Shown piece after piece: positions 3,664 to 15,272 of a stretch of 64,000 nt of DNA. Each line of letters starts with the position of its first letter. The stretch's first letter is position 1. Source of the stretch: a virus. The DNA lies in the IMG/VR virus record IMGVR_UViG_3300026457_000013, positions 18,253 through 82,252 of that record; one strand, given 5' to 3'. The translations under genes and the position numbers were made by a program. Below the pieces are notes generated by a model. That model saw only the letters and a program-made list of their open reading frames with translations, made no database searches and had not been told where the DNA came from.

Positions 3664-3673
3664 AAATATTCAC

Positions 3674-3702
3674 TTGATTTGTTGGTCAGAAGTCTGTATA
3701 AT
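3674..3702 (+). promoter_or_regulatory. promoter (class 1 type) for the gene at 3825
   Basis: TTGATT 3674-3679, 17-base spacer, TATAAT 3697-3702 followed by ATTATTTAT, preceded by AAATATTCAC as in the promoter at 4129. Confidence 0.75.
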
Positions 3703-3709
3703 ATTATTT

Positions 3710-3795
3710 ATCGGTTAGAGAACAATCGCCAGAGAGTACAACCAACTAATATTCGGGCTAAGCTATGACTTAGCAGCGGTACTCCCTCTAACCCT
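3710..3795 (+). promoter_or_regulatory. structured 5' leader of the gene at 3825
   Basis: Nested helices: GGTTAGAG 3713-3720 with CTCTAACC 3786-3793, GAGTAC 3734-3739 with GTACTC 3779-3784, and GCTAAG 3757-3762 with CTTAGC 3769-3774 closing a CTATGA loop. The fold sits between the promoter and the Shine-Dalgarno AAGGAG (about 3815). It could be a cis-regulatory element or just mRNA protection; it does not match a riboswitch class I recognise. Confidence 0.55.
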
Positions 3796-3824
3796 AGACA
3801 AATAGCAAATTACAAGGAGCACCT

Positions 3825-4118: not shown

Positions 4119-4128
4119 AAATATTCAC

Positions 4129-4157
4129 TTGAAGTTTATGTTCCCACAGTGTATAAT
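4129..4157 (+). promoter_or_regulatory. promoter of ncRNA 2 (class 1 type)
   Basis: TTGAAG 4129-4134, 17-base spacer, TATAAT 4152-4157 within GTATAATATTATTATT; AAAATATTCAC directly upstream. This is the most complete copy of the class 1 consensus. Confidence 0.8.
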
Positions 4158-4163
4158 ATTATT

Positions 4164-5230
4164 ATTGAGTGACAAGTTTAGGGCGAACCAGGGCCAACAT
4201 TAATCTGTTGGATAAGTTCTTAATCTGTGTTGAAAACACCCTTAACACAGACCCCACGAATGGCAGATGGTCGTTGTTAAATGTGGATACTAAAAATATC
4301 CGCTCCTGAAAGGTGCAAATCCTAAAAGTATAGTCGGGCGAGAAGGCCGGGCAATCCAAGGAGATCAACCAAGGGCTATATGCAGAGTGCCAGGTAAAAA
4401 CAACATTGACCAACCAACCTATTTGTATAATCACCGGCTTGATCCCATGCAACTGGTGGTTATACAAATGTGTTGAAATCTGTGGCCAACGTGCTTGCGT
4501 AGCTAACCTGCTGCGGAACGGACGCACATGGTGGAAGCTGCAACCACCCTAAAGGAACCAGCCCCCTAGTTTGTCAATAGTTATAGGGGTTAACCAAAAG
4601 ACCTGTTACCGTAGCATATACGTAGTTATGCGTTATCTAACACGAGAGTTAGAAACCAGTGGAGCCGATTCTGCGAAAGCATGGCGGCCACCCACTACAT
4701 GCCAGTAGCTCAAACGTGCTCAGAGCAAAGGTGTGCTAGAAATAAGCCCTCTAGCCTGGCCAACAATTCAAACACAGTGCAGAGTGAACATTAGCCTATA
4801 GCTAGCTGCCAGCAACTAAAAACAGTGCGTTGCTAAGGTTTGAAACCGATCCAGTTTAGGGTCGGGGTTTAGCAGTAACCTAAAACTGCTTGTGCCCTAA
4901 GGGGCCAATGCGCCAACAATAAATGGCAAGGCTATAACCACAGTGCCTGGTTAGTCGCGTTCTTATAATTGTTAATAGCCCTCAACGCAGGGTAATCTAG
5001 GTGCAAATCCTAGACGCGCTAGTTGCCCATCTTGGCTGGAACCCAAGACCTAAAGCAACTAAGAACAGCAAATGTTCGTGGCATCAACTACACCGACTTA
5101 CGACGACTCGCAATCGTCTAGAGTGTAGACAAAGATGAATGGTGGTCGTAGTAGCACTACATAAAAGTAATCCACCCCATTAAACCAAAAACAGCGCAGT
5201 TCAAAAGCCCGCCTTGTGCGGGCTTTTGTT
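4164..5230 (+). ncRNA. candidate giant structured non-coding RNA 2 (~1.07 kb)
   Basis: Bounded by a strong promoter (4129-4157) and an intrinsic terminator (5203-5230), with no plausible plus-strand ORF between. Local helices include a 17-bp stem 4421-4437/4453-4469 with wobble pairs, TCTAAC 4636-4641/GTTAGA 4648-4653, a TGC-GAAA-GCA tetraloop hairpin 4672-4681, and a T-arm-like hairpin at 4997-5013 inside a three-way-junction-like arrangement. The 14-mer AGGTGCAAATCCTA occurs twice (4311, 4999). It shares GATCCAGTTTAGGG (4848-4861) with ncRNA 1 (2439-2452). Length and ornate folding recall GOLLD/ROOL-type phage RNAs; that assignment is inference and unproven. Confidence 0.65.
5203..5230 (+). 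terminator. intrinsic terminator of ncRNA 2
   Basis: AAAAGCCCGC 5203-5212 pairs with GCGGGCTTTT 5218-5227 around a CTTGT loop, then GTTTAT. The same CTTGT-type loop recurs in the terminators at 6941 and 8514. Confidence 0.9.
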
Positions 5231-5250: not shown

Positions 5251-5463
5251 ATGTCTCAAGAATTAACCAACCAGCAACTAAAAGACCTTAACGACGATGT
5301 CCAAGAATTCATCGACAAGCTAAGGATACACTACAACGACGATACCCTAGCCATTGCAGCAGCACTAACGCAGTGGGGGCTAAGGCTTTACAAGAGTGAG
5401 CTGAGCACACCAGAATTCTACCAACTATTAGTCTACACAATTGAAACTAACCGCTTCCTCTGA
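5251..5463 (+). CDS. small hypothetical protein (70 aa)
   Basis: ATG 5251 lies 20 bases after the ncRNA 2 terminator; the upstream AAAAGG is a modest Shine-Dalgarno. The product is all-helical (DVQEFIDKLRIHYNDDTLAI, LRLYKSELSTPEFYQLL). The stop is part of a TTTAGGGTC-family 9-mer (GACCCTAAA at 5462). No separate promoter is evident, so it may depend on read-through of the terminator. Function unknown. Confidence 0.6.
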   Translation: MSQELTNQQLKDLNDDVQEFIDKLRIHYNDDTLAIAAALTQWGLRLYKSELSTPEFYQLLVYTIETNRFL

Positions 5464-5498
5464 CCCTAAACCTCAACAACCCTCACTAAAAAATTCAC

Positions 5499-5528
5499 TT
5501 GTTTTTGCTTATGCAAATGTGATATAAT
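5499..5528 (+). promoter_or_regulatory. promoter (class 1 type) of the leader RNA at 5535
   Basis: TTGTTT 5499-5504, 18-base spacer, TATAAT 5523-5528 followed by TTATTATAA; AAATTCAC directly upstream matches the class. The -35 box is weaker than in the other copies. Confidence 0.65.
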
Positions 5529-5534
5529 TTATTA

Positions 5535-5787
5535 TAAATTGAAAAAATTTAGAATTAGCAGCTGTACAGTGCAACTAGTACAAAACTCTGGGGGGTGTCC
5601 TGGCAAGGGGGGATCCAGGGGGCTTTGTGCTAGGTAGCTCGCAACCGGTACAAGGCTAGCTAATTCTAGAGATTTAGGGTCAAATCTCGAACCTTAAAAA
5701 GAGCAAATATAAAAATTAAAGCAAATTTTCCCACCCCCCAAAAGTGCTCCAGCCCTAGCAAAACCACAACTAACCAAACAAGCTAAA
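5535..5787 (+). ncRNA. structured leader / candidate ncRNA 3 upstream of 5788
   Basis: About 250 nt with no ORF. Clear pairings: AGAATTAGC 5551-5559 with GCTAATTCT 5659-5667; CTAGTACAAA 5575-5584 with TTTGTGCTAG 5624-5633; GAGATTT/AAATCTC 5669-5688 with the TTTAGGGTC motif in the loop region; and a 9-bp long-range match TGGGGGGTG 5589-5597 with CACCCCCCA 5732-5740. GAGCA 5701-5705 can pair with TGCTC 5745-5749. No T-run terminator lies before the ATG at 5788, and that gene lacks a good Shine-Dalgarno, so this reads as a cis-acting leader, though a processed RNA is possible. Confidence 0.55.
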
Positions 5788-12700: not shown

Positions 12701-13967
12701 CGTAGAAACAGAGTACATTAAGGAGTTTGATCCTACCAAGCGATTTATCAAACTGCCTATCGACAACTACTTACGACTCTTAAATCTATACGATACCATC
12801 AACAGGCCCCAAATCGCACTAATCAATAGTGTTAATGATCCACAGTATAGGTTTATCTGTGCTGCACTTGCCAGACGATTGGGCAAAACATACATAGCCA
12901 ATGTTATAGGTCAGCTGGTTACACTAGTACCCAACAGTAATGTACTTATCATTAGCCCTAACTATAATTTGAGTGCAATCAGTTTTGAGCTGCAGCGTAG
13001 GTTAATCAAGCATTTTGACCTGGAAGTAACCCGTGATAACCTCAAGGACAAGATTATTGAGCTCAGCAATGGATCAACTATCAGAATGGGATCTATTAGC
13101 ACAGTGGATTCAACAGTTGGTCGTAGTTATGACCTTATAATATTCGACGAGGCTGCACTTAGTGAGCATGGCGAGGACGCATTTAACATTGCCTTACGCC
13201 CTACACTAGACAAACCATCGGCAAAAGCCATATTTATTAGCACACCACGTGGTAAAAACAACTGGTTTTCAAAGTTCTGGTCGCGTGGATTTGACCCTAA
13301 CTTTCCAGAGTGGGTTAGTTTGCAGGCAGATTATTCGGAGAATAGCCGCATGGCACAGTCGGATGTTGATGAAGCACGTAGATCCATGTCGAAGTCGGAG
13401 TTTGAGCAGGAATATATGGCAAGTTTTACTAGTTACTTAGGCCAAATTTATGAAGGGTTTAAGCCTGAGTATATCCTAGACCAACTACCAGACCTGCGCG
13501 GTGAAGCTATTGCTGGTGTAGATGTAGGATACAAGGATGCCACTGCCTGGGTTAACATAATATACGACTATAATACCGACTGTTTTTATGCTGTAGAAGA
13601 TTATTTGGAGCCAGAGCGTACTACTAGAGAACATGCCGAACATTTTCATAGAATGATAGATAGTTGGAGTATACAAACTGTATTTATTGATAGTGCAGCA
13701 GCACAATTTGCTGCTGACCTAGCTTACAACTACGATATTGCTACTACTAAAGCTAAAAAAGACGTACTTGCAGGCATTGCATACGTGCAAACACTAGTCC
13801 AGCAAGGCAGATTTAGGGTACACAGAAATTGTCACCACGTTATAGCTATGCTAGATGCTTATCAGTGGGATAACCGCGAAAATTTAGCGCGTGAACGTCC
13901 TAAACACAACGAGTACAGTCACATGGCTGATGCTGTTCGTTATGCACTATACAGTTATGTAGTATAG
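12678..13967 (+). CDS. terL: terminase large subunit
   Basis: 429 aa, the two-domain packaging motor. ATPase: a Walker A-like ARRLGKT (about residues 65-71) and Walker B LIIFDEAA (about 152-159) with the catalytic Glu. RNase H-fold nuclease: GVDVGYKDA (first Asp), FIDSAAAQF (second) and HMADAVRYA (third acidic residue) near the C-terminus. It uses ATP to drive DNA into the procapsid and cuts the concatemer. Start at ATG 12678 is weakly supported by upstream GCGGAA. A minus-strand GIY-YIG gene overlaps its 3' end by 13 bases. Confidence 0.95.
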   Translation: MLVVSRNNVETEYIKEFDPTKRFIKLPIDNYLRLLNLYDTINRPQIALINSVNDPQYRFICAALARRLGKTYIANVIGQLVTLVPNSNVLIISPNYNLSAISFELQRRLIKHFDLEVTRDNLKDKIIELSNGSTIRMGSISTVDSTVGRSYDLIIFDEAALSEHGEDAFNIALRPTLDKPSAKAIFISTPRGKNNWFSKFWSRGFDPNFPEWVSLQADYSENSRMAQSDVDEARRSMSKSEFEQEYMASFTSYLGQIYEGFKPEYILDQLPDLRGEAIAGVDVGYKDATAWVNIIYDYNTDCFYAVEDYLEPERTTREHAEHFHRMIDSWSIQTVFIDSAAAQFAADLAYNYDIATTKAKKDVLAGIAYVQTLVQQGRFRVHRNCHHVIAMLDAYQWDNRENLARERPKHNEYSHMADAVRYALYSYVV

Positions 13968-14656
13968 GGTACTTTCCAGCCTTTGTATTGTTTTTTATGT
14001 CCACGCAATACTTCGCCTAATGAGCCGTGGTTTAAATTATGCTCTCTACAAAAACCCCTAAGACTGGGCTTAATGTCATAAATAATATTATCAGGACTTA
14101 TTATTTGAGGATAACCTGTAGTTTTAATATTTTTCGCAACCTTTCTCTTAGTACCCTTTAACTCTAAAAGTAATTTATATTCTGCTGGATACAAATTTTT
14201 TAACCAACTATGTGATGCGCCACTAGAAACATCTGCTAATGCTCCGCGGCTAATACCTGTTATTTCTATAATTTCTCTATGAGTTAATTTATTATCTACA
14301 AGATAGTGAAAAACTTCTATAATTAAGTCATTACTATATTTTGCGTTGCCGGCATTTTCACCATATAAATCCTGTCTATTTGTAAAACTTTTAAAAGCAT
14401 TAAACCCATTATTTACAGAATCATATATTGCAATAGCTTCTTCTTCTATAGAATCTAATTCATCAACAGTACATTCAACCAAAATTTCTAAGTTTGGCAT
14501 ACCAAATTCATTGTAAGCTTGCTGTAATTTTTTTCTGCTTTTTTGATTTTTTAGCGAAGTTTTATGGCTAATATATCTGCGCTCAATATCTATAGATTGC
14601 CCTATGTATACTTTATTAGTTCCACAAAAATTTAATTTATAAATGCCAACTGTCAT
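13955..14656 (-). CDS. GIY-YIG homing endonuclease (Seg-like)
   Basis: 233 aa on the opposite strand to its neighbours. The GIY-YIG signature is VGIYKLNFCG...VYIGQS (residues about 3-21) with the conserved Arg/Glu region downstream (ERRYISHKTSLK; EEEAIAIYDS). The C-terminal half has DNA-binding modules of the NUMOD/helix-turn-helix type (THREIIEITGISRGALADVS; SLRGFCREHNLNHGSLGEVL). Start 14656 follows AGAGGAC. The gene is visibly more AT-rich than the surroundings, as expected of a mobile free-standing nuclease inserted between terminase and HNH genes. Confidence 0.9.
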   Translation of the reverse strand: MTVGIYKLNFCGTNKVYIGQSIDIERRYISHKTSLKNQKSRKKLQQAYNEFGMPNLEILVECTVDELDSIEEEAIAIYDSVNNGFNAFKSFTNRQDLYGENAGNAKYSNDLIIEVFHYLVDNKLTHREIIEITGISRGALADVSSGASHSWLKNLYPAEYKLLLELKGTKRKVAKNIKTTGYPQIISPDNIIYDIKPSLRGFCREHNLNHGSLGEVLRGHKKQYKGWKVPYTT

Positions 14657-14810: not shown

Positions 14811-15272
14811 ATGGCAGTAAATACTAATAAACGTATACCAATAAAGCATATACGAGACAAAGCTAAAAGCGCATATGAAAAGCAATCTCACTGCTATATT
14901 TGTGAAAGCCAAAAAGAACTTGAATTACATCATCTACACAGCCTTACATATTTATTAGAAGCGTGGGTAAATAAAAAAGGTTATGATATTAGTACTGATG
15001 AAAAAGTTCTAGCAATTCGTGATGAGTTTATTGCAGAGCACCGTGTGGAAATATATGATCTAGTTTTTACCTTGTGTAACAAACATCATGTACAACTGCA
15101 TGGAATTTATGGTAAATCACCAATACCTAGCTCTGTACCTAAACAACAGCAATGGATAGAATTGCAGCGTAATAAATATTTAAGTGGTCAGCAAGATTTT
15201 CGTGGTAGTAGCTATGGCTCCTATTTTGCACAGTTCACAGGGGACTTAGATGGTACTAGAAAGATTACGTGA
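14811..15272 (+). CDS. HNH endonuclease
   Basis: 153 aa. Zinc/HNH features: CYIC (residues about 27-30), the His pair in ELELHHLHSLT (about 36-46) and LCNKHHVQLHG (about 96-106), fitting a His-Cys-Cys HNH nuclease. HNH proteins next to terminase are known in HK97-type phages to cooperate in cos cleavage; free-standing homing HNH genes also occur. Here it has its own promoter, is adjacent to a GIY-YIG gene and overlaps the portal start by 23 bases. Both roles remain possible. Confidence 0.8.
   Translation: MAVNTNKRIPIKHIRDKAKSAYEKQSHCYICESQKELELHHLHSLTYLLEAWVNKKGYDISTDEKVLAIRDEFIAEHRVEIYDLVFTLCNKHHVQLHGIYGKSPIPSSVPKQQQWIELQRNKYLSGQQDFRGSSYGSYFAQFTGDLDGTRKIT

Follow-up and report, generated by a model that had tools for sequence, protein, structure and literature searches.

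Few RNAs as large and complex as the one considered here have been found in nature. Among those of phages, GOLLD and ROOL have been studied best, and the cages that they form have no known purpose. The GOLLD cage is a 14-mer. Both are long phage RNAs, often found near tRNA islands, and both form RNA-only cages through kissing loops; GOLLD has separate 5' and 3' domains and a variable linker that is able to hold tRNAs (PMC12286853). Two long non-coding RNAs of the staphylococcal phage K were likened to GOLLD and ROOL by the authors who reported them (PMC9241854).

The locus described here lies in a 64-kb window (the whole stretch of DNA analysed) of an 82-kb IMG/VR phage record (G000:C1:18253-82252). 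Positions are those of the window, and features are on its plus strand unless stated otherwise. The terminase shares 48% identity with its counterpart in Vibrio phages of 112-121 kb, which we take to be T5-like. The same record encodes tRNAs along with a tmRNA of the permuted, betaproteobacterial type, from which we infer that a betaproteobacterial host is likely. The tmRNA (L060:180-577, minus strand, upstream of the window) has the tag ANDEVFALAA and adjoins a tRNA-Thr gene. Just past the terminase gene, translations read by eye resemble a GIY-YIG endonuclease (13955-14656, minus strand) and an HNH endonuclease (14811-15272, plus strand).

An initial annotation had proposed a giant non-coding RNA at this locus, belonging either to GOLLD or ROOL or to a new class. 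The existence and the novelty of an RNA family are well supported, since homologues have conserved, covarying structure, lack a conserved ORF and match no Rfam family; the new-class part of the proposal therefore stands, while membership of GOLLD or ROOL does not. Transcription and function remain inferences. None of 4,227 Rfam families reached its gathering score anywhere in the window, and matches at E ≤ 5 were at chance level and included no relevant family. No model for group I or group II introns, HEARO or OLE matched in the window; applied to related loci, the same tool did recognise a group I intron, a permuted tmRNA and tRNAs. Directed searches with the GOLLD model (RF02032, gathering score 150 bits) returned 0 matches in the window's record at E ≤ 10, with no positive control run; the best score, 11 bits, fell elsewhere in the record of one homologue (L038), outside the giant RNA. 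The ROOL model (RF03087, gathering score 99.1 bits) gave 0 matches in five records at E ≤ 10, but control genomes gave no match either, so the sensitivity of that search is undemonstrated. Comparison with the Rfam models was a check that the initial annotation had proposed, and together with the structure conserved in homologues it supports the new-class branch. In length, phage origin and variable linker this RNA is like GOLLD and ROOL (PMC12286853), as a divergent member of an already known family (one of these two, or an intron) might be. With neither RF02032 nor RF03087 matching the giant RNA at E ≤ 10, however, and no relevant Rfam family at E ≤ 5, we find this reading scarcely credible.

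The likeness to these systems is one of kind. Like GOLLD, the RNA is of phage origin, exceeds 800 nt and has a conserved 3' region and domains that vary independently (PMC12286853). The GOLLD linker is variable and can hold tRNA-related elements (PMC12286853), whereas the linker here holds not a tRNA but a module that we call R1. In GOLLD the 3' part is conserved and the 5' part variable; here conservation extends to both halves, and insertions are found along the whole RNA. GOLLD is often in or near a tRNA island, while the nearest tRNA found here ends ~8.6 kb upstream, and the association with tRNA arrays belongs to the R1 module only and not to the giant RNA locus. The RNA also has helices and loops of its own and no match to the GOLLD covariance model. 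ROOL, too, is a long and ornate phage RNA; its function is unknown and its linker variable (PMC12286853). The RNA described here is longer, distinct in structure and without a match to the ROOL covariance model. The phage K RNAs adjoin tRNA genes in another phage group, whereas this RNA is not beside tRNA genes. This RNA fits best as a separate, new class among the giant ornate RNAs of phages, and any GOLLD- or ROOL-like mode of working may be proposed by analogy only.

The predicted transcription unit has a promoter and a terminator of its own. A sigma-70-like promoter (TTCACTTG-N-TATAAT, 4124-4157) begins with TTCACTTG at 4124, and a spacer of 17 nt precedes the -10 element TATAAT at 4152-4157; transcription is predicted to start at about 4164. 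The exact motif has just 3 copies in the 82-kb record, all on the plus strand. In the 4 homologues whose contig covers the promoter, the -35 and -10 elements are retained while the spacer has diverged. At the other end, an intrinsic terminator (5202-5228) with an 11-bp stem and a T-tail is kept in 6 of 6 lineages. The best-fit promoter and textbook terminator of the initial annotation were thus both recovered, and between them lies ~1.07 kb with no conserved ORF. The longest plus-strand ORF in this interval has 48 aa, and none is preserved in both frame and length among the six lineages, in agreement with the earlier statement that no plausible plus-strand ORF is present; homologues with a conserved ORF, which had been named as refuting evidence, were looked for in the six lineages and not encountered. 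One frame in the central domain (LLTVIGVNQKTCYRSIYVVMRYL...) starts with TTG and is open in 6 of 6 lineages. We rejected it as a protein because its length (45-74 aa) and its ends shift between lineages and its changes follow a covarying hairpin. The minus strand was likewise considered as the RNA; its fold energy is slightly worse (-384 versus -392), and the promoter and terminator indicate the plus strand.

Homologues were collected via neighbouring proteins and conserved DNA patterns, and the giant RNA was found in 5 more independent viral lineages (L003, to which L004 is identical, L038, L068, L074 and L085), making six with the window. Pairwise identity is 80-90% over aligned bases and length ranges from 851 to 1152 nt; the L038 contig ends inside the RNA and lacks its 5' part. 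A covariance model of the 3' domain (R2) matched only these six in ~0.7 Mb of related loci plus 13 further records, so the core family looks narrow as far as we have seen, its known members forming one narrow phage group. Apart from similarity to the promoter or terminator, no match to the giant RNA was found in 50,697 phage records; no relatives were found in GTDB genomes by exact patterns, nor in plasmids. Two patterns tried as family finders (GGCGGCCACCCACTAC and CCGTAGCATATACGTAG) matched mostly unrelated contigs. In L006, L007, L009 and L017, long stretches lacking a closed ORF were also considered as further giant RNAs. They are nearly identical to one another, unrelated to the query and, when read by eye, appear as DNA-polymerase-like coding sequence with an ORF that runs off the contig.

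The initial annotation had pointed to many helices, and these were borne out by the alignment. Over 797 shared columns, the consensus fold has an energy of -392, compared with -291 ± 8.5 for column shuffles that preserve gaps and conservation (z = -12). Applied to a short coding alignment, that of the neighbouring 70-aa gene, a test of the same kind gave z = +2.4, and for single sequences z was -4.3 against -0.9 for a coding control of the same length. The 5' domain (4158-4258) contains hairpins 4194-4199/4206-4211 and 4224-4233/4242-4251 in the consensus fold of the lineages covering this region. The long stem-loop at 4421-4469, previously described as a 17-bp stem, is real and has at least 17 bp: the consensus contains 21 nested pairs, the outer 10 of which are invariant, and six pairs have changed on both sides. 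In the central domain (4470-4699), the helix 4636-4641/4648-4653 covaries fully, appearing as UCUAAC/GUUAGA, CUUACU/AGUAAG or CUAUAA/UUAUAG around a loop that is always ACGAGA. The same domain holds an invariant hairpin (4614-4631) with the palindromic loop TACGTA (4619-4624), which is the same in six lineages and, being invariant, gives no covariation signal; we infer that it is a candidate for a symmetric kissing loop suited to contact between two copies. The GAAA tetraloop singled out earlier is present at 4675-4678 but is not conserved, since L038 alone has another GNRA loop (GCAA) and the other four lineages differ.

Covariation is extensive in the 3' domain (4915-5194), which is found only in the six lineages and comprises 77 pairs, including a second T-loop hairpin (4997-5013). 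Standard pairs occupy 97.0% of its base-pair cells, and both-side changes occur in 16 of the 77 pairs. None of 500 shuffles scored as high, and slid structures dropped to 34-39%, although the slide control is biased in the structure's favour because the structure was derived from these same sequences. The helix 5063-5067/5073-5077, for example, differs in sequence in L068, L074 and L085 with its pairing always intact. We also noted a near-exact 15-nt direct repeat (AGCAACTAARAACAG) at 4811-4825 and 5054-5068, the first copy of which is inside an optional block.

Whole blocks are present or absent between close relatives. The R1 block (4260-4417) lies at a variable site, with the 5' domain before it and the long stem after it; it is found in the window and in the surviving part of L038 and is absent from L003, L068, L074 and L085. 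A block of ~105 nt after 4469 occurs in L038 and L085, and another at 4699 in L003, L038 and L085. The variable region that follows (4700-4850) consists of a conserved hairpin block (4700-4760) and an optional block (4761-4850) that the window shares with L068 and L085 alone. All lineages that cover the 5', central and 3' domains have them in the same order.

The R1 module is a self-contained domain whose own covariance model (98.5 bits for the window copy; E-values for both R1 and R2 are rough) found one copy per locus. It consists of a closing stem, a hairpin of 5 bp with a 7-nt loop, a T-loop hairpin (AGG-UGCAAAU-CCU) and an optional extension hairpin; 99.5% of cells in this fold are paired and 7 of 30 pairs have both-side changes. 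A pattern taken from 4297-4322 matched 20 other viral contigs (L105-L124, including near-duplicates; ~13 distinct sequences), every one in a tRNA array, and R1 was on the tRNA strand in 11 of the 11 contigs examined closely. The window's R1 is 92% identical to the copy in L119 even though the flanks are unrelated, which indicates that a cassette was exchanged. In the searches made, R1 had no matches in isolated phages, plasmids or GTDB genomes, nor in Rfam for the loci scanned. The YrlA bacterial Y RNAs (RF02553) have a tRNA-like module beside a long helix, an arrangement that invites comparison with R1. Because of a slight resemblance in the closing helix, R1 was considered as a Y RNA and rejected: the Rfam YrlA model matches neither R1 nor the giant RNA, and in R1 loci it gave only weak matches, below the gathering score and in the tRNA region away from R1.

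Since R1 has hairpins resembling an anticodon arm and a T-loop, it could be read as a tRNA mimic whose hairpins lure host enzymes that cleave or modify tRNA and thereby shield the phage's own tRNAs. In the 7-nt loop (YUMARAR) the place of tRNA U33 is always taken by U, the T-loop UGCAAAU is one letter off the tRNA pattern, and R1 sits on the tRNA strand within tRNA arrays. Its helices, however, are ordered and connected unlike those of tRNA, neither ARAGORN nor the Rfam tRNA models give it any score as a tRNA or tmRNA (the giant RNA does not match either), and it is missing from 4 of the 6 giant RNAs. We therefore regard such a decoy or sponge as improbable.

One R1-containing tRNA array has a longer composite structure. 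In L119 (9866-10965, with similar arrangements in L114 and L123), a promoter with 12/12 matches is followed by a chain of differing, structured and apparently non-coding domains, with four repeated hairpins (CCATATTGAAGCACATT...AGTGTGTTTCAATATGG) between them and R1 as the last. Rfam had 0 matches to these domains in L114 and L123 (L119 was not scanned). The chain may represent another, second class of such giant RNAs in phages. In another such array, we observed a group I intron (L106:13185-13378, minus strand) with a score of 53.4 bits, above the cut-off.

The same arrays bear on whether the giant RNA is a precursor that is cut into smaller functional RNAs in the manner of a tRNA array; processing at the long stem and the linkers would release R1 and the other domains individually. 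In other phages a lone R1 unit is flanked by tRNA genes, the L119 chain has differing structured domains split by repeated hairpins, and domains of the giant RNA come and go independently. Against this, the order of the 5', central and 3' domains is constant and R1 can be lost while the remainder is kept, and the loss of R1 alone from a body of constant order suggests one functional body with optional cargo. We consider processing unlikely, though not to be dismissed.

A 70-aa ORF of unknown function (5251-5463), a neighbour outside the RNA, begins ~20-30 nt past the terminator in five lineages, as would be expected if the RNA were a long cis-acting leader or attenuator of the gene beyond it. 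In L085, however, the RNA directly precedes a different gene (L085:1844-3337), encoding a 497-aa glycine-rich protein that in our own reading looks like part of a tail fibre, and the terminator is strong in all lineages. To our knowledge, known leaders are all far smaller than this RNA. We consider a leader very unlikely, and the change of downstream gene in L085 argues for a stand-alone RNA rather than the leader of one gene.

On sequence evidence, then, the locus has its own promoter and terminator, conserved helices, domains gained and lost as units, and a module that is shared with phage tRNA arrays. The reading we prefer, with a probability of roughly 55%, is that of a stand-alone, untranslated phage RNA of ~1.07 kb that folds into a trans-acting scaffold or particle, possibly self-assembling, with R1 as an exchangeable payload. 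A conserved body with an optional tRNA-array element follows GOLLD/ROOL-like logic and, together with the TACGTA loop, makes a trans-acting scaffold or particle probable. We infer, without transcript data, that host RNA polymerase would transcribe the RNA early or mid infection. The RNA may then act through its three-dimensional fold, as a GOLLD/ROOL-like scaffold or particle would, and could self-assemble by loop-loop contacts for which the TACGTA loop is a candidate, an idea that rests on analogy. R1, in the variable linker, might serve as the payload that engages tRNA or the translation machinery.

A further, unrelated class in T5-like phages offers an independent system for asking what giant RNAs do. 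Close relatives that have or lack R1 amount to a deletion experiment made by nature, and through R1 giant phage RNAs can be connected, in a way open to test, with the biology of tRNA arrays. More tentatively, large structured RNAs in phages might form a modular system in which folded cassettes, R1 among others, are interchangeable, some of the RNAs lying in tRNA arrays and others being free-standing giant RNAs like the one described here; if this possibility were true, it would be a mosaic type of RNA gene not described before.

Two other regions near the locus have related promoter sequences. At 3669-3824, a further copy of the promoter motif and a short, hairpin-rich leader lie ahead of a 97-aa gene that occurs in 33 viral contigs and 0 isolated phages. 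At 5490-5787, a similar promoter (TTCACTTG...GATATAAT) is followed by ~200 nt that are free of ORFs and have many inverted repeats, before a gene for a 249-aa protein; L038 has a different sequence at the equivalent place. This region is possibly a second, smaller structured RNA or a leader.
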